This document shows, in pieces, positions 1,722-13,812 of a stretch of DNA of 64,000 nt. Source of the stretch: a bacterium. GTDB taxonomy: Bacteria; Sysuimicrobiota; Sysuimicrobiia; Sysuimicrobiales; Segetimicrobiaceae. The position numbers were made by a program, and so were the translations under genes. The notes beneath the pieces are model-generated. The model was given only the letters and a program-made list of their open reading frames with translations, was not told where the DNA came from and did not search any database. Every line of letters starts with the position of its first letter. Positions within the stretch are counted from its first letter, which is position 1. The DNA lies in assembly GCA_035307765.1 (NCBI GenBank), contig DATGHU010000013.1, forward strand, positions 1-64,000. The letters run 5' to 3'.

Positions 1722-2648
1722 TCAGCGCTCCCCTTCGCCCGGGGAAACGGCCTTCCCTCCGCCCTCCCCACGAGCCGGGGATCCCGTTCCGGGACTTCCC
1801 AAGTACACGACCCGAAACCGATCGAAGGCTTCAATTAAACGTGCCGCGGTCTCGGGATCTTGAAAGTCGTGCTCGTAGCGGCTGATCCTCGACAGCAGGA
1901 CTCGCGCGCCCATGAGCCCGTGGATCGGCCGGGGAACTTGAGGGTCCCCAGTTGCCATCGGGCTGGTGGTCAGAAAATATTCCCGGATCACTCCGGCGGC
2001 GAGCAGGCTCGGGAGGAAACGCGGGCCGCCCTCGCATACCGCCGTATGCACGCCATGGCTCGTCAGGACGTCGAGGACACCCTCGATCCGCGGACGACCG
2101 TCCGATCCCGACGGCACGCGGGCGACGGCAACCCCTCTGGCCTCAACGGCGCGGATCTCGTCGCCGGTCGCCAGGAGCCCGGTCAGCACGAGTTTGTCGA
2201 ACCCAGCCGCTGAGAAGAACCGCTTGTCGAAAACCGTTGCGTCCCAGGCCAGCGTGGTCGTCACCACCACCGCCAGGAGGCGCGGAGGGCAACCGCGGGC
2301 AATTCGCCGGGCAACTTCACCGTCGGGGAGCGCCGCGGTGACGTCGTCGCTGATCAGGGTCCCCGATCCCACGACGACCGCATCGACCGCACTGCGTACT
2401 CGGGTCAACGCCACCCCATCGACGGAGGTACCGATCGATGCCGCCTTCCCCTCAACGACCGCCTCGCCGTTCTGCGTCATCACCATGTGTGCGACCAGAT
2501 AGGGAACCGGGGTGGGGAGCGATGGAAACGCAAGCGACGCGTAGAACTGCGCCAGGGGGATCTCGCGCGGGTGGGGTTCGACCTCGTTCCAGGCCAACCG
2601 GACGGTCGCCGGGAGGGGGACCGTCCGCTTCCAGTCCGAAGGCCTCAC
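1722..2648 (-). CDS. RibD C-terminal domain (dihydrofolate reductase-like) protein
   Basis: A 308-residue protein with the RibD_C/DHFR-like fold: a substrate-side strand VAHMVMTQNG near residue 53, the nucleotide-binding VVVGSGT at 91-97, and the diagnostic CEGGP at 205-209. Family members are NAD(P)H-dependent reductases of riboflavin or pterin-like compounds. There is no N-terminal deaminase domain, so it is a stand-alone reductase and not full RibD; the first 45 residues are unusual. The start is GTG with only a weak ribosome site. It is the upstream partner of the M20 peptidase and diverges from the gene at 2826. No other riboflavin gene is present, so the substrate is unknown. Confidence 0.75.
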   Translation of the reverse strand: MRPSDWKRTVPLPATVRLAWNEVEPHPREIPLAQFYASLAFPSLPTPVPYLVAHMVMTQNGEAVVEGKAASIGTSVDGVALTRVRSAVDAVVVGSGTLISDDVTAALPDGEVARRIARGCPPRLLAVVVTTTLAWDATVFDKRFFSAAGFDKLVLTGLLATGDEIRAVEARGVAVARVPSGSDGRPRIEGVLDVLTSHGVHTAVCEGGPRFLPSLLAAGVIREYFLTTSPMATGDPQVPRPIHGLMGARVLLSRISRYEHDFQDPETAARLIEAFDRFRVVYLGSPGTGSPARGEGGGKAVSPGEGER

Positions 2649-2692
2649 CGCGCGCCGCCTGAAGGACGGGGGCCGCCGCTCATGGTTGCCCC

Positions 2693-2704
2693 CATGATAT
2701 CATG
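2693..2704. promoter_or_regulatory. Perfect 12-bp palindrome in a divergent intergenic region
   Basis: CATGATATCATG lies between the divergent RibD-like gene (minus, starts 2648) and the hypothetical gene starting at 2826. Its position fits a dimeric repressor site, but no regulator is adjacent and no second copy was noticed. Confidence 0.25.
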
Positions 2705-2825
2705 CGTTCGCCGCTGTCCTGCGTTGCCCGCCAGCTTCGCTTGCCTCAACGGTCCCGCGTCACCTTGGGAGGCCGGGCGCCGGCCCGTAGGGAATAGTGT
2801 GGCAGACATACCCGAAAGGGGCTTG

Positions 2826-3323
2826 ATGTCGGAGACCGCAGCGGCCCAGTGGGGCCAACTTTGGCAGAACCTCGAGGCTCTTCAAGACCAAGCGACCCGG
2901 CTCCGGCACCTCTCGCAGCGCGAGCCCCTGGTGCAGTGGCGCCGAGGGTACCCCCGCGCCGGCACCAGCCGGTCCCACGAGGGGGAAGTGCGGGATGTGC
3001 TGGACGGGCTGCAGCAGCGCCTGGGAAATGTCCGGGCGCTGGCCCCCATCATCCTCGCGCAGGATCCGAAGCCTGGCCTGGCCGCCGACGAGCGTGCCGA
3101 AGCGGTGGGCGCACGCCTGGAAGCCCTCATTCGGCTGACGGTAGGTCTGAAGGAACAAGCGTTCCTCCCGGGACCAGAACTCCCGCCGCACGCGCCGCCC
3201 TACGTCGTGGAGCCTCCGGGGCACGACCTGGCGGGAACGAAAGCGGTGCTGCTCGCCCTCGGCATCGAAGAGGTGGTCCTCGCAATCCGCAACGCCATGC
3301 TCGCGGTGGTCAACGGGGCGTAG
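2826..3323 (+). CDS. Hypothetical helical protein
   Basis: A 165-residue protein starting at ATG with AAAGGGG a few bases upstream. Much of it looks alpha-helical and charged (LQDQATRLRHL, VRDVLDGLQQRLGNVRAL, ERAEAVGARLEALIRL), with a proline-rich stretch around residues 118-135. There is no signal peptide, no cysteine and no recognisable catalytic motif. It stands alone between a divergent reductase gene and the convergent DUF1501 gene. The function is unknown to me. It is judged real because of the start site, length and the weak alternatives on the other strand. Confidence 0.6.
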   Translation: MSETAAAQWGQLWQNLEALQDQATRLRHLSQREPLVQWRRGYPRAGTSRSHEGEVRDVLDGLQQRLGNVRALAPIILAQDPKPGLAADERAEAVGARLEALIRLTVGLKEQAFLPGPELPPHAPPYVVEPPGHDLAGTKAVLLALGIEEVVLAIRNAMLAVVNGA

Positions 3324-3410
3324 CCTGCGATCCAGCTCCGGCTGGGGCCCCTAAGGGACCCCGGCCGGTCTGAAGTGCCGGTTTCCCGGGGGAGGGTTCA
3401 CCGACACGAG

Positions 3411-4694
3411 TTACCCTGCTTTGGGGAGGCCGGCGCGCGGTTTGAGGACATCGACCAGGGGGAACCGGTCGCCGAGAATCTGCTGGCTGGAGACCCCCAA
3501 CCACTGCTCGAGCACGGTGGCGTAGACGCTTCGGAAGTCGACGTTGTACTTCAGATCCCCCTGGTCGAGATCGGTCAGGCTGGGATGAGGGCCGCCCAGG
3601 CCGGGGGCAACGGACCCGCCGATCAAGAACATCGGCGCGGCCGCCCCGTGGTCGGTCCCGGCGGACGCGTTCTCGGCCACCCGCCGGCCAAACTCCGAGA
3701 ACGTCATGACCAGAACCCGATCCAAGAGTCCCTTCTGCATCAGGTCTTTCACGAACGCGTCGAGCCCCCCCGCCATCTGCTCGAGCAGACGGTCGTGGCG
3801 CCCCGCCTGGGCGGCGTGGGTGTCGAACCCGCCCAAGCCGACGTAATACACCCGGGTTGGCGAGCCGGCCGAAATCAACTCCGAAACCAATCGCAGCTTC
3901 ATCCCGAACGGGTCGCGCGGATAGCTGCCGCTGTCCGATAGATGCCCCGCGACCTTCCGGATGTCGTCTGAGGCAAGGACGGCGTCCATCGCGGTGTGGG
4001 TGAGGAAGTCGACCATCGGCTCCTCCCCGGGCACCGGCTGCAGCAGCTGGCGGTAGGCCTCGGCCTCCGCCGAACCCGCCCCCTGCAACGGATGGAACGC
4101 AAACGCCTGCGGACTCTCGAGCACCACGGCCCGCCCGGAGGTCCCCTGCATCGCCAACGGCATCTCGGCCCCAAGCATCGCCACCCCCGCCGTGGGCCCG
4201 CAGACCGGACACTCGCTGTCGAACAACCGCCCCAGCCACCCCGTGCGCGGACCATTTCCCGCCGGGTCCGCAGTCTGCCAGATTTCCATGGAGCGAAAGT
4301 GGCTGCGGTTGGGATTCGGGTAGCCGGCTCCCTGGATCACGGCCAGCCGGCCATCATCGTAAAGCGCCTTGAGCGGCTTCAGCCCGGGGTGGAATCCCAG
4401 CTCGTCGTTCACCTTGAGGACCGCCTCGCGCGGGACAGAAAGATGGGGGCGGGCCCGATAGTACTCGTCGTGCCCGTACGGGACGAGGGTGTTGAGGCCG
4501 TCGTTCCCTCCGCCCATCTGGACGACGACCAGGATCGGGCCACCCGACTGGCCCGCGGAAGCGGTCAGGGTGTGATCCCAGGGGTTGTTCAACGCGAGGG
4601 CGGTCCGCGTGAGGAACATCGGGGCGGTCGCCCCCGCGGCCACGATGGTCAGCCCTTTGTTCAAGAACTCTCGTCGCGTCATCATGTTGGGCAT
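3411..4694 (-). CDS. DUF1501 family Tat-exported protein
   Basis: A 427-residue protein with a twin-arginine signal (TRREFLNKG, residues 6-14, followed by an Ala-rich hydrophobic stretch) and DUF1501 features MGGGNDGLNTL, GAGYPNPNRSHF, GGFDTHAAQ and TFSEFGRRV, which place it in the alkaline phosphatase/sulfatase-like superfamily. The family is exported and is almost always encoded beside DUF1800, as here: the DUF1800 gene ends 11 nt upstream, so the two are surely cotranscribed. The start ATG has GGGGGAG close by; a second ATG nine bases downstream is possible. The substrate and role of the pair are not established. Confidence 0.9.
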   Translation of the reverse strand: MPNMMTRREFLNKGLTIVAAGATAPMFLTRTALALNNPWDHTLTASAGQSGGPILVVVQMGGGNDGLNTLVPYGHDEYYRARPHLSVPREAVLKVNDELGFHPGLKPLKALYDDGRLAVIQGAGYPNPNRSHFRSMEIWQTADPAGNGPRTGWLGRLFDSECPVCGPTAGVAMLGAEMPLAMQGTSGRAVVLESPQAFAFHPLQGAGSAEAEAYRQLLQPVPGEEPMVDFLTHTAMDAVLASDDIRKVAGHLSDSGSYPRDPFGMKLRLVSELISAGSPTRVYYVGLGGFDTHAAQAGRHDRLLEQMAGGLDAFVKDLMQKGLLDRVLVMTFSEFGRRVAENASAGTDHGAAAPMFLIGGSVAPGLGGPHPSLTDLDQGDLKYNVDFRSVYATVLEQWLGVSSQQILGDRFPLVDVLKPRAGLPKAG

Positions 4695-7753: not shown

Positions 7754-7978
7754 TTAGATCTCCACGGTCTCCAACATCGTGCTCAACTGCTTGCGCAGCT
7801 CAGGCGTATTCTGATGGCCGTGGCTCTTCGCGGCGTGTGTCGCCGCCGCCTCGACCAAATCTTCCCGTTGAGATTGCGGGGCCATGATCACCAGCTGGCA
7901 GTTCTTCTCGCTCGGAAACTTTCCACAGTTGGCCACCACCCACGTGCCCTTCGCCAGGCGCAGTTGCGTCGCGTCCAT
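7754..7978 (-). CDS. DUF1059 family small protein
   Basis: A 74-residue protein with the DUF1059 pattern: a first Cys in VVANCGKFPSEKNC (C18 and C27), the EDLVEAAATHAAKSHGH block, and NTPELRKQL near the end. The start ATG is chosen because GAGGGG lies eight bases upstream and homology begins here; longer upstream starts are possible. The function of the family is unknown; the conserved Cys/His residues suggest metal binding. It lies about 95 nt after the hydrolase::glycosyltransferase gene and may be the last gene of that transcript. Confidence 0.85.
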   Translation of the reverse strand: MDATQLRLAKGTWVVANCGKFPSEKNCQLVIMAPQSQREDLVEAAATHAAKSHGHQNTPELRKQLSTMLETVEI

Positions 7979-8072
7979 TTCCTTCACCCCTCTCAGTCTG
8001 GACTTCATCGCGATCCTTCGCTCCACCCAACGGCCGGTCACACCTCCCTTCTGATACACTTGCGGATCTGAG

Positions 8073-10226
8073 CTACCCCAAGACCCGAGCTACCAACTCT
8101 GCGGCCCGCGCCGCCCCCCCAGAAGGGACGGGTGAGTACTCGACGGACGCGGCGAGCGCGTGCCGCACCCCCTCCGCGAGCCCCTCGGAGCTTACCTCCT
8201 GGTAGTCCATCTGCGCAGCGTGCCCGTAGCGGCGCAGGCGCCTCGCCACGTGAAATCGCTGCTCGAAATGATTGCGCAGCGGGAACGACAGGAACGGCCG
8301 CCGAAGCGCGATCAACTCCATCCCGGTGGTCAGGCCGCCCTGGGCCACGGCCGCGTCACAACAGGCCAGATGCTGGTACAAGTCGGGAAGGTACCCTTGA
8401 ATGTCGACGTGCCCCCCGCCGTCCGTGGAAACCCTCGCCCGGGGGCCGGCGACCACCACCAGACGCAGGTTGGGGATCGCTCGGGCCAAAAAAGGCGCGG
8501 CCGCCACGACCTTGTCCAAGAGATGGCGGCCCACCGACGTGCCTCCCGCCGTCGCGATCACGAGCGTCGCGTCCTCCGGGTAGCCGAGCTGCCGCCTCAG
8601 CACCGGGGCCGGCGGCAGGGTCTCGGGATCGAACGGCAGGATATAGTCGCAGAACTCGAAATGCTCTCGCGCCCACCCCCGCATATTGGGGAGATCACGG
8701 CCGAACGGCTCGTCCAACACATCCTCGGGATCGCCGAGGAAAATCGCCATGTCCCGCAGGCGCGGGTAGCGCCCAACGTGCGCGACGTGCTCGGCGTTAG
8801 CATGCCAGCACAGGTGCCCTTCGTAGGAGTCCCAGCCGGTGATCGGCAGCATCCCGATATAGTCGGTCAGAAACACATAGGGGGCCGTTTTCAGCTCGGG
8901 GTTCTCGTGCATGAAGTAGTCGACGTCCCACGCTTCGTCGCCCACCCAGGCGTCGTAGCGTTCACTCTCCGTGACGTCGGCGAACGTCATGAAGTTGGAC
9001 GTCAGCACCTCGTCCATCTGCCAGAGCGCCAGGAACACGTTGACGTCGTGCTCGCCGGCCTGCGCCTCGATGTGGGCCGATTCGTTGAGCAGCCGATCGC
9101 TGGCCGGGTGAACGATCTCTCCCGCCTGTGCGACCACCGATCGTACGGGATCGACGGCCAACCAGTGGATCTCCAGCCCCGGTCGCAATCGGCGAAGCTC
9201 CCGCCCGATCGCCAGATCCCGCTGTACGTGGCCCAACCCGATGGGGGAACAGACCCAGAGGATCTTCCGCTTGGCGGTGAGCGCGTGCGCCACCCGGCGG
9301 GGGGCGGGAGGGATCCCCACAAAGTCGCGGATCAGCCGGTTGACCCGCACGCACTCGCGCAGAATGCCGGCGTGGCCGGTACCTTCCAGCGTCACCAGGG
9401 TTGAGCCGGCGATGGTCCGCTGCATGGATGGGGCGTTGAAGGCGTGGGCCGCCAACCGATCCTCGGTCCCGTGCACGAGCAGGGTGGGGGTCCGGATTCG
9501 CCCCATCAGGTCGGGAAACGGTGTTCGGCTCCACCACTCGTCGCGGGTGCGGATGAGGATCTCCGGGTCTCCGTCCAGGCCCCAACTCATCGCGTCGGCG
9601 AGCGCCTTCGTCGAATGCGGTTCGGGAAGCATCTGTGCGGCGAAAAACTCGACCCACCCCAGGTAATCGGCTCGGAAGTAGTTCGCGTTCAACTTGGCCC
9701 AGCCGGCGTATCGCTCGCGCACCTCGTGAAAGAGCCGAAGGACCTCCTCCCGGCGGCGCTCGCGCTCGGCCCCCACGGCCTGGCTCGGGGCGCCGCTGAT
9801 CAGCACCAGGTGGCTCACCCGGTCCGGATGGTCCGCGGCCAACATGATGGCATGGTTGGCGCCCCCCGACCAGCCGATCACGGCGGTGCGGTCGACCTCC
9901 GCCGCCTCCAAGACCGCGAGTGCGTCGGCGGTCAGCGTGTCGTGGTCGTAGCCGGTAGCCGGGCGATCGGAGCGGCCGCTGCCACGGGCGTCGAACGTCA
10001 CCAGCCGGAACCACCGGGCCAGGTAAGGGACTTGGAACTTCCAAACTCGACTGTGCGCCATCTGCCAGCCGGGTAGCAAGAACAGCGTGGGGGCGGCGTG
10101 CCCAAATACCTGGAAGGCGAGGCGGATCTCGCCGTGTCGAGCGAAGCCCTCGCTAACGGGGGTAGCGACGTCGCTGGCCCCGAATCGCCCGCAGAGACGG
10201 TCAAGAATCTCCGGTGGCGGCCTCAC
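8073..10226 (-). CDS. Alpha/beta hydrolase::glycosyltransferase fusion
   Basis: A 717-residue two-domain protein. Residues about 1-315 form an alpha/beta hydrolase: nucleophile elbow GWSGG (Ser120), acid in HGTED (Asp256) and His285 in GTGHAG. Residues about 325-717 resemble a GT-B glycosyltransferase of the MurG/UGT type: it opens with a nucleotide-fold strand and a Gly-rich loop (LWVCSPIGLGHVQRDLA) and ends with a donor-site-like region (VAQGGLTTGMELIALRRPFLSFP). The GTG start has GGGAGG seven bases upstream; ATG at 10247 is an alternative. The gene overlaps the end of the TetR gene by 26 nt, implying coupled translation. Both active centres look intact. It could glycosylate and deacylate or hydrolyse one small molecule, but the substrate is unknown. 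Confidence 0.8.
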   Translation of the reverse strand: MRPPPEILDRLCGRFGASDVATPVSEGFARHGEIRLAFQVFGHAAPTLFLLPGWQMAHSRVWKFQVPYLARWFRLVTFDARGSGRSDRPATGYDHDTLTADALAVLEAAEVDRTAVIGWSGGANHAIMLAADHPDRVSHLVLISGAPSQAVGAERERRREEVLRLFHEVRERYAGWAKLNANYFRADYLGWVEFFAAQMLPEPHSTKALADAMSWGLDGDPEILIRTRDEWWSRTPFPDLMGRIRTPTLLVHGTEDRLAAHAFNAPSMQRTIAGSTLVTLEGTGHAGILRECVRVNRLIRDFVGIPPAPRRVAHALTAKRKILWVCSPIGLGHVQRDLAIGRELRRLRPGLEIHWLAVDPVRSVVAQAGEIVHPASDRLLNESAHIEAQAGEHDVNVFLALWQMDEVLTSNFMTFADVTESERYDAWVGDEAWDVDYFMHENPELKTAPYVFLTDYIGMLPITGWDSYEGHLCWHANAEHVAHVGRYPRLRDMAIFLGDPEDVLDEPFGRDLPNMRGWAREHFEFCDYILPFDPETLPPAPVLRRQLGYPEDATLVIATAGGTSVGRHLLDKVVAAAPFLARAIPNLRLVVVAGPRARVSTDGGGHVDIQGYLPDLYQHLACCDAAVAQGGLTTGMELIALRRPFLSFPLRNHFEQRFHVARRLRRYGHAAQMDYQEVSSEGLAEGVRHALAASVEYSPVPSGGAARAAELVARVLG

Positions 10227-10992
10227 GTCGCTTCCTCCCTCGGGCATCCAGCGCCATCAAACGCGGGAGGTTCCCCATTAACCGGATCGCTTCCATATGC
10301 AGCTGCGGGTCCTCGCCGGCGAGGATCTCCACCTCCGCCCCAAAATAGAGATCGCCGAACAGCCGGCCCAACACCCGTGAGTCGACCGCGCCTTCGACCC
10401 CATGTTCTGCCAGGCCTTGACGCGCCAACTCGGAGACCAGGTCACGCCAGCGTCCGATCATCTGCGCCAGGCGCTTTCTGATGCGTACATTGCTGAGGCC
10501 CTGAGCCCATAGCTCCCAGAGGCCGCGGACGTACCCCGATTGCATATCCTCCTTGAAGTACTCGAGCGCCGTCGCCCAGATGGCTTCGAAAGACCGCACC
10601 TCCTGGTACATCTTCCGCTGCCGGGCGAGGAGTTGCTCGTTGACGTACTCAAGCACTTCCAACATCAAGTTCTCCTTGCTGCCGAAGTAGTAGTGGACGA
10701 GGCTCTGGTTGACTCGGGCCTCCTCGGCGATCCTGCGCATTGAAATCTGATTGTACCCCACATCGACGAGGGTACGAAAAGCGGCGCCGAGGATCTTGTC
10801 GCGCGTGGAGATGAGAACGGCGGGCGAGGAACGCTTCCTCCCGGGCCTCGGGCCCTGCGCCGCGGAGGTCAGCGGGTGAGTGCCACGCGAGCTTCGCTGA
10901 TCCGCTGTGTCTTCCCGGATGTGGCCGCGGGGGGAGAGACCGCCATTGCCCCCCGAAGCCGGGTGACGCAGGTGCCGCTTGCGGCCCGTCAC
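10201..10992 (-). CDS. TetR family transcriptional regulator
   Basis: A TetR-type repressor. The helix-turn-helix lies at about residues 62-110 of the longest frame: RDKILGAAFRTLVDVGY, then MRRIAEEARVNQSLVHYYFGSKENL. The C-terminal ligand domain is helical. The N-terminal 60 residues look unlike coding sequence of this family and the real start is unclear: no good ATG or GTG with a ribosome site is visible nearer the HTH, so GTG at 10992 is provisional. It sits third in the minus-strand cluster that begins at the promoter near 12690; the palindrome there is the obvious candidate operator. It overlaps the fusion gene downstream. Confidence 0.85.
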   Translation of the reverse strand: MTGRKRHLRHPASGGNGGLSPRGHIREDTADQRSSRGTHPLTSAAQGPRPGRKRSSPAVLISTRDKILGAAFRTLVDVGYNQISMRRIAEEARVNQSLVHYYFGSKENLMLEVLEYVNEQLLARQRKMYQEVRSFEAIWATALEYFKEDMQSGYVRGLWELWAQGLSNVRIRKRLAQMIGRWRDLVSELARQGLAEHGVEGAVDSRVLGRLFGDLYFGAEVEILAGEDPQLHMEAIRLMGNLPRLMALDARGRKRREAATGDS

Positions 10993-11151
10993 TTCGGCGA
11001 GATCCCCGGGGGGATCGTCGCGGGATGCGCGTCGTCAGGTGGCACCGCGGCACCGCCGACCATCGCCCCTCCTCGTCCGCTGCCGGCGCCTGGGGGGAGG
11101 ACACCCCGGCGTCGCGTCAACTCGGTGGTATTTCGCACGGCTCTCCTCTCT

Positions 11152-11931
11152 CTACGTGCTCGGAAACGGGGCGATGCCGGCCAGATGGAGCAGCGCCCAC
11201 ACGCCCAGCGCCACTCCCAGAGGACGGGTCAGATGGTGCCCCCACCGAGTCGTCCGCTCGGCCGCCATGACGGCACCCAACCCAAGCATCCAGCCCAAAT
11301 TCGCCCCGCCGATCGCAAACATCAGCAGCATCAGGGTCCAGCAACATCCGAGGCAGAACAGCCCGTGGCGGGCGCCCAACTGAAGGGCATCACGGGCCTC
11401 TCTCCCACGCCAGTGCTCCACGATGAACGAATAGGGTGACCGGCACTTCTCCAGGCACATCTGCTTGAGCGGGGTGAACTGGTAGATTCCGGCGGTGAGC
11501 AGGAGGACCGTCGCCACCCAGGGGGCCGCGGACGGAACCAGTTCGATCGCTTCGTGCACGAGGGCGTCCCCCCGGTAGGCCAGCGCGCCGAACCCCACCC
11601 AGACGCCGAGGTAGCCGAGGACGAGCCGGCGCAGCAGGGCGTTGCAATCCGACCGCCCCGCCACCATGCGCCGGAAGAGATGCACGAGGGGCAGGCTGCT
11701 CGGCAGCATCATCGCGATCGTCATCAGGGTCCACCCGACGACGAAAAGGCCCAGCCGGAAGACCGGGGGGAGGGAGAGGGTGCGGTCGCCGATGATCACC
11801 CGGTGGCTGAGCAGCCCCGCGAAGGGCGAGGCCCCCCACACCGCGAGCGCGACCCACGCCAAGGCCACGAGAGCCCCGACGGAAAGCCGGTACCAGCGCG
11901 TGTCATCCGGTGTCCGGATTGCTCCGATCAT
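11152..11931 (-). CDS. DUF2182 integral membrane protein
   Basis: A 259-residue polytopic membrane protein of the DUF2182 family, predicted to bind metal. Diagnostic segments are WTLMTIAMMLPSSLPL (residues about 67-82), IYQFTPLKQMCLEKCRSP, and GLFCLGCCWTLMLLMF with its Cys-Cys pair; about six membrane segments are visible. It follows the DUF1326 gene by 25 nt on the same strand. These two families are commonly adjacent, which supports a shared membrane complex. A role in metal or copper handling has been suggested for the families, but it is not proven. Confidence 0.9.
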   Translation of the reverse strand: MIGAIRTPDDTRWYRLSVGALVALAWVALAVWGASPFAGLLSHRVIIGDRTLSLPPVFRLGLFVVGWTLMTIAMMLPSSLPLVHLFRRMVAGRSDCNALLRRLVLGYLGVWVGFGALAYRGDALVHEAIELVPSAAPWVATVLLLTAGIYQFTPLKQMCLEKCRSPYSFIVEHWRGREARDALQLGARHGLFCLGCCWTLMLLMFAIGGANLGWMLGLGAVMAAERTTRWGHHLTRPLGVALGVWALLHLAGIAPFPST

Positions 11932-11956
11932 CTCTCCGTACTCCTCTCCCGACCCA

Positions 11957-12559
11957 TTATCCCTCGAACCGGAAGTTTCCCAGCACCGCGTTCCGGTTGG
12001 TGAACTCCCAGGCCATCTTGTGCTGGGGGATGTTCACCCGATGCGCCGTCGCCTTGCCGACGAACGCGGGGGAACCGGGGATCGTGCTGAAGACGGTGTC
12101 GACCAGCTTGGTCGGTCGCCCCTTGGCATCGGCATAGGGCTGCATATCCGCCGACACCGCATCCCCGACGCGAATCGTGCCCTTGCCCTCGACGAGGTTG
12201 AACTGAATGGGCGCGTCGTACGCCCCCACGACCTCACCCACCAGCTTCGCCAGGTCGGCAAGCGGCCCACCCAGTTTCCCGGTGTGCATCGCCAGGATCG
12301 CGTCCTTCTGCTTGGCCGACGCCTTGCTGTCAACGTATGCCGCAACCCTCCAGTTGCCCGCGAGCACGTTTCCGGGAATCTGGCAGACCAACGCCAGCGT
12401 CAACCCGCTGACATCGACGTCGTTGATGTGCCCCTTGTCGTAGTGGTAGGCCAAAAACGCATCACATGTGCCTCCGTCGGGGTCGTCTCCGACCCAGCAC
12501 GGACAGGGTCCCGCGCAGGAACAGGCTTCCAGCAACCGCCCTTCGACCGCATACCCCAT
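11957..12559 (-). CDS. DUF1326 domain protein
   Basis: A 200-residue DUF1326 protein. The N-terminus carries the family's Cys cluster, EACSCAGPCPCW with a further Cys (C13, C15, C19, C21, C32), consistent with metal binding. Later conserved parts are the ALVCQIPGNVLAGNW region and VNIPQHKMAWEFTNRNAVLGNF. The ATG has GGAGGT seven bases upstream and homology begins at MGYAVEG. It is the first gene of the minus-strand cluster, about 85 nt from the palindrome. It pairs with the DUF2182 membrane protein. Confidence 0.9.
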   Translation of the reverse strand: MGYAVEGRLLEACSCAGPCPCWVGDDPDGGTCDAFLAYHYDKGHINDVDVSGLTLALVCQIPGNVLAGNWRVAAYVDSKASAKQKDAILAMHTGKLGGPLADLAKLVGEVVGAYDAPIQFNLVEGKGTIRVGDAVSADMQPYADAKGRPTKLVDTVFSTIPGSPAFVGKATAHRVNIPQHKMAWEFTNRNAVLGNFRFEG

Positions 12560-12643
12560 GCTCTCCACCTCCCGATTGGATTCGTACCTTCCGATCGTGC
12601 CCCCGATCACGCCTCCGCTTGCTTGGATCGGGTCTTGCCTGTC

Positions 12644-12690
12644 AATTGATCGGTCGATCAATTAATACCCAAGACGCCTTCGCCTGTCAA
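12644..12690 (-). promoter_or_regulatory. Promoter overlapping a TetR-like operator
   Basis: On the minus strand, TTGACA (12690-12685) is followed by a 17-bp spacer and TATTAAT (12667-12661), a good sigma-70 promoter. The perfect inverted repeat AATTGATCGGTCGATCAATT (12644-12663) starts within the -10 element and covers the expected transcription start. Such a site would let a dimer block initiation of the DUF1326-DUF2182-tetR-fusion transcript. The TetR protein encoded at 10201-10992 is the natural candidate; autoregulation is inferred. Confidence 0.75.
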
Positions 12691-12777: not shown

Positions 12778-13812
12778 TCAGGCGGGCCGGCGGTGCGGCG
12801 CCGAGGGGGGTTCGGGCCGTTCCCTCGGCGGCTGCCTCCGCCGCGAAAGGACGGCTGGCGTGTGCGGGGGCGGGGTGGGGGTCTGCGCGCGGCCCCGGTA
12901 CCGGAGGCGGTGGGCCGCGTTCCGGAGCCGGGCGTCGGTTACCTCGTAATACACCTGCGTGGTCGCCGGGTTGGCGTGCCCGAGGAGACGTTGAGCCTCC
13001 TCGATCCCGAGCCCCACCGTCGCCATCTGCTGCCCCGCGGTGTGGCGGAGGTGGTGGAAGGCGATCCCCTCGGGAATCGGGACACCGGCCACCCCAGCGT
13101 AGCGTTTGAAGATCTTCTCCACGCTGGCGTAATGGAGCCGGGCCCGGCGGGGCTGAAACGGCAGACGAAAGAACAGCGCGGTCGTGGGGGCGGTGGGACG
13201 CACGGCCAGCCAAGCGAGGAGAGCCGCCCGCGCATCGTCGGTAAGCGGCACCACCTGTTCTTTGTTGCCCTTGCGCAGCACCACGAGGGCCGCACGCTCC
13301 GCGTCGGCAAGGTTCACCACCCGCTCAATATCCAAGCGGGTCACTTCGCTCACCCGCAACCCCATCAGCCCCAATTCCGCCATCGCGCGATCCCGAAGCA
13401 CCCGCGGCGACCCCTCTCGGAACGCGGATCGAAACTGGGCCACCTGGTCCTCGGTCCACCAGCGATGGACTCGATAGGGCCGTCGCGGCGGGTGAATGTC
13501 TTGACCGATCGAGTACGGCCGGCCCTGGCGTTTGCGGAGCCACTCGTAGAATTGGCGGAGGGCCGTGATGCGCCGAGCGCGGGTCGCCACCGACAACCCC
13601 GCCTCGGTCATCCGGCGCGCGAATTGGACCAGGTCCTCGGTGCGCGCATCCTCAAGCTTGCCGTGGATGTACTCGGAGAAATCCTTGAGGTCGCGGATGT
13701 AGGCGAGACGGGTGTTGAGACCGCGGTCTGCCCCTTCAAGGTCCGTCCACCACTCGAGGAGCAGGGGGTCAACCGAAGGGATGGGAGATCGCAGGTGCCG
13801 CCGTCCGGGCAT
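12778..13812 (-). CDS. Tyrosine recombinase (XerC/D-like)
   Basis: A 344-residue site-specific recombinase. An N-terminal SAM-like DNA-binding domain (about 15-100) precedes the catalytic domain with the full set: Arg153 in GLRVSEV, Lys181 in LRKGNK, His253 and Arg256 in HHLRHTAG, His279 in LLGHANPATT, and Tyr288 in QVYYEV. After residue 300 a Pro/Arg-rich tail of about 40 residues is unusual for XerC/D. No att repeats, phage genes or second recombinase adjoin it. It may be a diverged Xer protein or a remnant of an integrated element. Confidence 0.85.
   Translation of the reverse strand: MPGRRHLRSPIPSVDPLLLEWWTDLEGADRGLNTRLAYIRDLKDFSEYIHGKLEDARTEDLVQFARRMTEAGLSVATRARRITALRQFYEWLRKRQGRPYSIGQDIHPPRRPYRVHRWWTEDQVAQFRSAFREGSPRVLRDRAMAELGLMGLRVSEVTRLDIERVVNLADAERAALVVLRKGNKEQVVPLTDDARAALLAWLAVRPTAPTTALFFRLPFQPRRARLHYASVEKIFKRYAGVAGVPIPEGIAFHHLRHTAGQQMATVGLGIEEAQRLLGHANPATTQVYYEVTDARLRNAAHRLRYRGRAQTPTPPPHTPAVLSRRRQPPRERPEPPSAPHRRPA

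Follow-up and report, generated by a model that had tools for sequence, protein, structure and literature searches.

A predicted TetR-regulated operon joining a hydrolase-glycosyltransferase fusion to a DUF1326-PpoB2 pair recurs in several bacterial phyla

Introduction

Do a TetR-family regulator, a hydrolase fused to a glycosyltransferase (GT), and members of the DUF1326, DUF2182 and DUF1059 families form one system, and what would such a system do? The question is raised by five minus-strand genes of a bacterium of the family Segetimicrobiaceae (NCBI GenBank assembly GCA_035307765.1, contig DATGHU010000013.1, positions 1 to 64,000; this whole stretch of 64,000 nucleotides is hereafter called the window). 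An earlier note on this DNA had read the genes as one regulated module and had suggested detoxification. DUF2182 (PF09948) is now named PpoB2, 'Copper chaperone', in Pfam, after a Marinomonas protein. Comparison of sequences indicates that the DUF1326-PpoB2-TetR-enzyme-DUF1059 stretch is a real bacterial operon recurring in several unrelated phyla, and that comparison lends good support to the operon itself, to its regulation and to its recurrence; detoxification is one of several possible roles.

We rate the operon as a regulated enzyme operon holding a previously undescribed metal-type pair. The explanation that we favor, with a probability of about 0.42, is a single autorepressed operon in which a small-molecule-induced hydrolase-GT is accompanied by a DUF1326-PpoB2 pair that would deliver Cu(I) in the service of the same chemistry. 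Two large uncharacterised families that co-occur in many phyla thereby gain a testable joint hypothesis, namely Cu(I) handling. For the enzyme family, present in roughly 4-10% of the sampled genomes of three phyla, regulators are now predicted along with three operator sequences specific to them, so that its inducer and substrate should be findable.

The operon and its conservation in close relatives

All five open reading frames (ORFs) were confirmed on the minus strand between 12559 and 7754, where the earlier note had placed them, and their families are supported by Pfam:

11957..12559 (-), DUF1326 protein, 200 amino acids; Pfam 185.5 bits against a cut-off of 25
11152..11931 (-), DUF2182/PpoB2 membrane protein, 259 amino acids; Pfam 205.3 bits against 28.7
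10201..10992 (-), TetR-family regulator; TetR_N 50.9 bits against 24; helix-turn-helix (HTH) beginning near 10806; clade W in the TetR tree
8073..10247 (-), alpha/beta-hydrolase::GT-B fusion, assigned from Pfam/NCBIfam, alignment, a PDB profile search and motif positions
7754..8008 (-), small DUF1059 protein with CGKFPSEKNC...HAAKSHGH; PF06348 score only marginally above the Pfam cut-off (22.0 against 21.1 bits)

The DUF1326 gene starts at ATG 12559, preceded by GGAGG, and no signal peptide was seen in its product. A gap of 25 bases separates it from PpoB2, and an automatic scan of the PpoB2-TetR interval found no terminator-like site. The TetR start codon is uncertain: no convincing start lies close to the HTH, and the frame stays open to GTG 10992; the start of the fusion gene overlaps the end of tetR.

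Of the 61 genomes compared around the window, two (G007 and G002) contain the fusion at 72% identity, accompanied in both by DUF1326, PpoB2, TetR and DUF1059 in the same order, with the G002 fusion split over two contigs. Module identity is 60-87% in these relatives (L027; L029 plus L028), and the module is also kept in L053, there lacking the enzyme. The earlier note had made its module depend on neighbours being conserved in close relatives, and in both of these the order is kept. The DUF1059 proteins that L027, L028 and L053 carry in the corresponding module show 75-78% identity, and those near the pair in L058, L063 and L068 show 58-67%.

Some relatives also show local rearrangements. Between the TetR operator/promoter and DUF1326, G002 (L029) carries a cupin with an N-terminal signal-like stretch (4149-4574, minus strand) and a berberine-bridge-type (BBE) flavin adenine dinucleotide (FAD) oxidase (2648-4033, minus strand); at that place G007 (L027) has, by eye, seemingly only a decayed cupin remnant. 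In G001, one reading frame holds both TetR and DUF1059, bridged by a short linker at the place where relatives have the enzyme gene, as though that gene had been lost; this arrangement (L053, 2636-3496, minus strand, the same as L092, 1490-2350, plus strand) would reflect either a natural deletion or an assembly error.

Recurrence across phyla

The GT half of the enzyme was searched for in 400 Chloroflexota, 396 Actinomycetota and 95 Rokubacteria-phylum genomes and matched in 17, 30 and 9 of them, respectively, from which 55 loci were fetched. The DUF1326-PpoB2-TetR-enzyme order recurs in Actinomycetota (L156, L219). In Chloroflexota (L201, L207) the order is DUF1326-PpoB2-TetR-hydrolase-hydrolase-GT, with the parts of the enzyme as separate genes; the fusion therefore joins proteins that elsewhere are made from neighbouring genes. 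Recurrence in unrelated genomes, which the earlier note had proposed to look for, was thus found, and conservation and recurrence of the operon both emerge from this comparison. Other modules are rearranged or partial (L097, L134, L111/L250, L210, L222, L227). In Ktedonobacteria (L097) TetR and the fusion accompany the pair. In Actinobacteria the pair comes with the fusion in L111 and, TetR included, in L156; the Rokubacteria locus (L134) likewise has fusion and pair, on a contig without TetR.

In total, DUF1326 and/or PpoB2 lie within ~5 kb in 8 of the 55 fusion/GT loci; seven of the eight were found without using the pair, and L250 was known beforehand. The linkage expected by chance is a few hundredths per set. 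Three adjacent enzyme-pair loci were observed in Actinomycetota against 0.05 expected (P about 3e-5), and PpoB2 is present in 11 of 28 enzyme-bearing genomes versus 56 of 366 others in this phylum (Fisher P = 0.003; these counts leave out two genomes found via the pair).

The pair itself is far more widespread. A DUF1326 profile scan covered 84,980 species genomes, and the best 80 loci were retained, which include Cyanobacteria, Actinobacteria, Chloroflexi, Acidobacteria, Betaproteobacteria, Dadabacteria, Rokubacteria and Eremiobacterota. PpoB2 is immediately downstream of DUF1326 in 80 of these 80 (76 by automatic coordinates; the remaining four show an overlap because the ORF finder chose an early start). 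Contexts of the pair elsewhere include LuxR/BTAD-TPR regulators, an extracytoplasmic function sigma factor with anti-sigma factor and methyltransferase, and major facilitator superfamily transporters. Such constant pairing under very different regulators and neighbours favors the view that the pair is a general metal/thiol-handling cassette, repeatedly captured by regulated operons, which shares the promoter of the enzyme and not its chemistry. The same view is favored by a close relative (G001) that keeps DUF1326-PpoB2-TetR-DUF1059 and has no such fusion gene in its genome. However, pair and enzyme adjoin each other much more often than chance predicts in two phyla, unrelated groups show the same order, and operators are shared even when pair and enzyme are unlinked (in G065, described below), so that we consider repeated capture somewhat doubtful.

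Promoter, operator and regulation by TetR

Two further features precede DUF1326:

12662..12690 (-), promoter-like TTGACA-17-TATTAA, read directly, with TTGACA at 12690-12685 and TATTAA at 12667-12662
12644..12663 (no strand assigned), predicted TetR operator AATTGATCG-AC-CGATCAATT, 20 bp, overlapping the -10 box and start region

At the equivalent place, L027 also has a TTGAC(A) box, and L029 a complete one together with TATTAA. An automatic search for promoters passed over this one because it accepts only -10 boxes with T as the sixth base, and the box here ends in A. The operator had been described as a perfect palindrome overlapping the promoter; the overlap and perfect 9-bp arms hold, but the palindrome is not perfect throughout, as its two central bases are unpaired. 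Arms of at least 9 bp appeared in 0.7% of shuffles of the upstream stretch, and TTGATCGnnCGATCAA with at most one mismatch has a single occurrence in the 3.8-Mb genome. Related ATTGGTC...GACCAAT-type sites occupy the same place in L029 and L027. The N-terminal HTH, together with this candidate operator near the promoter of its own operon, agrees with membership in the TetR family. Separately, the -35 region TTGACAGGC (12690-12682) recurs at 12645-12637, 45 bases downstream and beyond the operator.

In 22 of the 55 enzyme loci, the gene immediately preceding the enzyme on its strand encodes a TetR. With at most two mismatches, TTAGTCAnnTGACTAA gave 16 sites in 1.75 Mb versus 0-2 in simulated sequence, all 16 close to tetR, fusion or DUF1326 genes, and exact CGGTCGATCGACCG gave nine sites, all in enzyme loci, versus 0-1. 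Three TetR clades pair with three operator classes, with L212 as the single outlier: clade A (recognition helix NHGLVHYYFGS) with TTAGTCA sites, clade B (PLSQIHYHFG) with CGGTCGA sites, and the window clade W (NQSLLHYYYGS) with TTGATCG/ATTGGTC sites. The operator motif of the window was rejected as a general site, since the sites of clade W relatives are longer and of ATTGGTC type, and those of clades A and B have other sequences.

Wherever DUF1326 is the first gene (the window, L156, L219, L201 and L207) the operator lies upstream of it, and one regulator is therefore predicted for both pair and enzyme. In G065, where the pair operon and the enzyme are on separate contigs, clade-A (TTAGTCA-class) sites precede both tetR-DUF1326-PpoB2 (L095, two mismatches, weaker) and the enzyme (L199, perfect). 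Comparative evidence, including the apparent covariation of operator and regulator, thus points to TetR control of the whole operon; the idea of one regulated module gains from its retention in relatives, its recurrence in other phyla and an operator sequence that varies with TetR clade.

The hydrolase-glycosyltransferase enzyme

The hydrolase half (~residues 36-310; Abhydrolase_1, 89.7 bits) contains GWSGG and an intact triad of Ser127, Asp263 and His292; in the alignment, the nucleophile is Ser or Cys among relatives. The GT half (~325-724) is of the MJ1255/YjiC type of GT-B, with SPIGLGH, DEAW, QGGLTTGMEL and HFEQ. Its Glyco_trans_1_3 and Glyco_tran_28_C scores are barely above cut-off; SPIGLGH, QGGLTTGMEL and HFEQ are nearly invariant in the enzyme alignment, in agreement with a GT-B assignment. 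The intact triad and the nucleotide-sugar-type GT-B half bear out the previous prediction of a hydrolase::glycosyltransferase.

The nearest solved relatives of the GT half in a PDB profile search are YjiC, oleandomycin GTs (OleD) and MurG. The system resembles TetR-controlled macrolide GTs of the YjiC/OleD type and esterases of the EstT/EstX type in its enzyme folds and in a linked TetR with a palindromic operator, but differs in having both predicted activities in one chain and in the accompanying metal-type pair. Identity as an EstT/EstX macrolide esterase was rejected, since the enzyme reaches only 60-62 bits versus NCBIfam cut-offs of at least 420 for the curated families.

Alternatively, the enzyme might make or remodel an envelope glycolipid, a polysaccharide or a secondary metabolite rather than inactivate an incoming compound. 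The enzyme gene comes after a polysaccharide deacetylase in G027 and G018, a split copy in the genome of the window (contig C23, GT beside hydrolase) lies between PMT-like membrane proteins, and the GT half is related to MurG and MJ1255. Its closest solved relatives are, however, of the YjiC and OleD type, and TetR control with OsmC, NTF2-like and BBE/FAD oxidase neighbours fits inducible small-molecule metabolism better; of the explanations considered here, the envelope or metabolite role seems to us the least probable.

The DUF1326-PpoB2 pair

The earlier note had seen a metal-linked membrane pair with Cys clusters, and conserved residues support a pair of metal type. DUF1326 (PF07040) has five Cys (13, 15, 19, 21 and 32; CxCx3CPCx10C) invariant in 56 sequences. 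Invariant residues of PpoB2 are W67, M70, M74, M75, P77, Q151, C159, C163, C193, C196, C197 and E225; its Met and Cys residues are invariant in 46 sequences, and invariant or nearly so over all alignments. In the helical model these conserved candidate Cu(I) ligands lie in membrane helices. AlphaFold models reach pLDDT 93 for DUF1326 and 90 for PpoB2, which is all-helical, and Foldseek comparison of both with the PDB returned nothing at E <= 0.001. For DUF1326 the highest-ranking structure was acetoacetate decarboxylase 3c8w, a similarity (TM-score 0.40, root-mean-square deviation 12.4) too weak for it to be accepted as a fold relative. A literature search found only PpoB2/COG5486 described, with DUF1326, DUF2182, PF09948 and PF07040 not named.

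Copper is suggested as the metal by the family name, the type of ligand and a few copper-enzyme neighbours (tyrosinase, near PpoB2 only in Caballeronia, and SBP56). A metal role is plausible, and DUF1326 and PpoB2, having no solved structural relative, probably handle copper. In Marinomonas, PpoB2 passes copper to tyrosinase (PMC2855505). Like PpoB1-PpoB2 of Marinomonas mediterranea (COG5486/PF09948), the DUF2182 protein of the window is a strong PF09948 member in the membrane, with invariant Met/Cys, in a multi-gene operon. Unlike that system, it has no adjacent tyrosinase, is partnered by DUF1326 and is predicted to be under TetR control, and copper delivery, established there, is suggested here by family.

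A second, divergent DUF1326-PpoB2 pair is present in the genome of the window (contig C17), and PpoB2 also occurs without DUF1326, beside DUF899 (thioredoxin-like) genes, in L075, L077, L078 and L079.

Thiol and organosulfur neighbours

Certain neighbours raise the possibility that the operon, or its ancestor, serves organosulfur or thiol breakdown, with the pair giving copper to an SBP56-type thiol oxidase and the hydrolase-GT handling a sulfur metabolite. SBP56 is a copper-dependent methanethiol oxidase (PMC5739008), and SBP56 genes follow the enzyme at a distance of ~100 bp in L204 (7151-8278), L239 (2336-1218) and L249 (5503-4619), and beside PpoB2 in L213 (1558-2976). On roseobacter plasmids (L251, 4209-5600; L253, 5190-6600), PpoB2-DUF1326 is directly upstream of dimethylsulfoniopropionate (DMSP) demethylase genes, with SBP56 slightly further along in one of the two; a Marinovum record annotates both proteins as involved in DMSP breakdown. 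A DMSP demethylase above the NCBI cut-off occurs together with the pair, TetR and enzyme in L227, and OsmC adjoins the enzyme in 12 of 55 loci. In cyanobacterial loci (L098-L108), the pair is flanked by SfnB/DszC-like flavoproteins and luciferase-like monooxygenases, which suggests organosulfur use.

On the other hand, the window module has no such gene nearby, SBP56 is near only 4 of the 55 enzyme loci and none of the 80 DUF1326 loci, and its matches score under the NCBI methanethiol-oxidase cut-off. The evidence thus suggests thiol/organosulfur chemistry for some members of the family and does not single out the window, and we hold an organosulfur role for this operon to be improbable. The mtoX-SCO1/senC-mauG (SBP56) operons offer a parallel in that a copper helper is encoded with an oxidase, in the four relatives' loci with SBP56 by the enzyme or PpoB2, and in the DMSP genes beside the roseobacter pairs; they differ in that SCO1 and MauG are unrelated to PpoB2/DUF1326 and no SBP56 is near the window module.

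A possible mechanism

In the favored explanation, an autorepressed operon for a single chemistry, TetR would bind the palindrome over the promoter and block transcription until released by a small-molecule ligand. The bifunctional enzyme, presumably cytoplasmic, would open or cleave an ester, lactone or similar bond with its hydrolase half, and its GT half would attach sugar from a nucleotide donor to that compound at a hydroxyl or thiol group. DUF1326-PpoB2 would bind Cu(I) via the conserved Cys/Met and may hand it to a copper enzyme that takes part in this chemistry or suffers stress from it, and DUF1059, a small Cys/His protein, would be an accessory.

Several observations weigh against this explanation. 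The enzyme occurs without the pair in 47 of 55 loci. Most occurrences of the pair, spread over many phyla, are likewise without the enzyme, which means that the pair cannot need the enzyme for its function, and G001 retains it in just that state. The neighbours that recur beside the enzyme (OsmC, SBP56, methyltransferase) indicate no single substrate. Within 5 kb of the window module the genes are XerD-like, aminotransferase, M20 and DUF1800, with no copper enzyme (tyrosinase or other) among them. A bolder version would see in DUF1326-PpoB2 a widespread and structurally novel machine of two proteins for copper delivery, which together with the TetR-controlled hydrolase-GT forms an inducible system; this system would use a copper enzyme to process a thiol, an organosulfur compound or another redox-active one. 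Such a version appears unlikely.

Directly upstream, the operon adjoins a XerC/XerD-like tyrosine recombinase gene (12778-13812, minus strand), which has a counterpart in G002 with 86% identity and conserved synteny (aminotransferase and Glu dehydrogenase genes).

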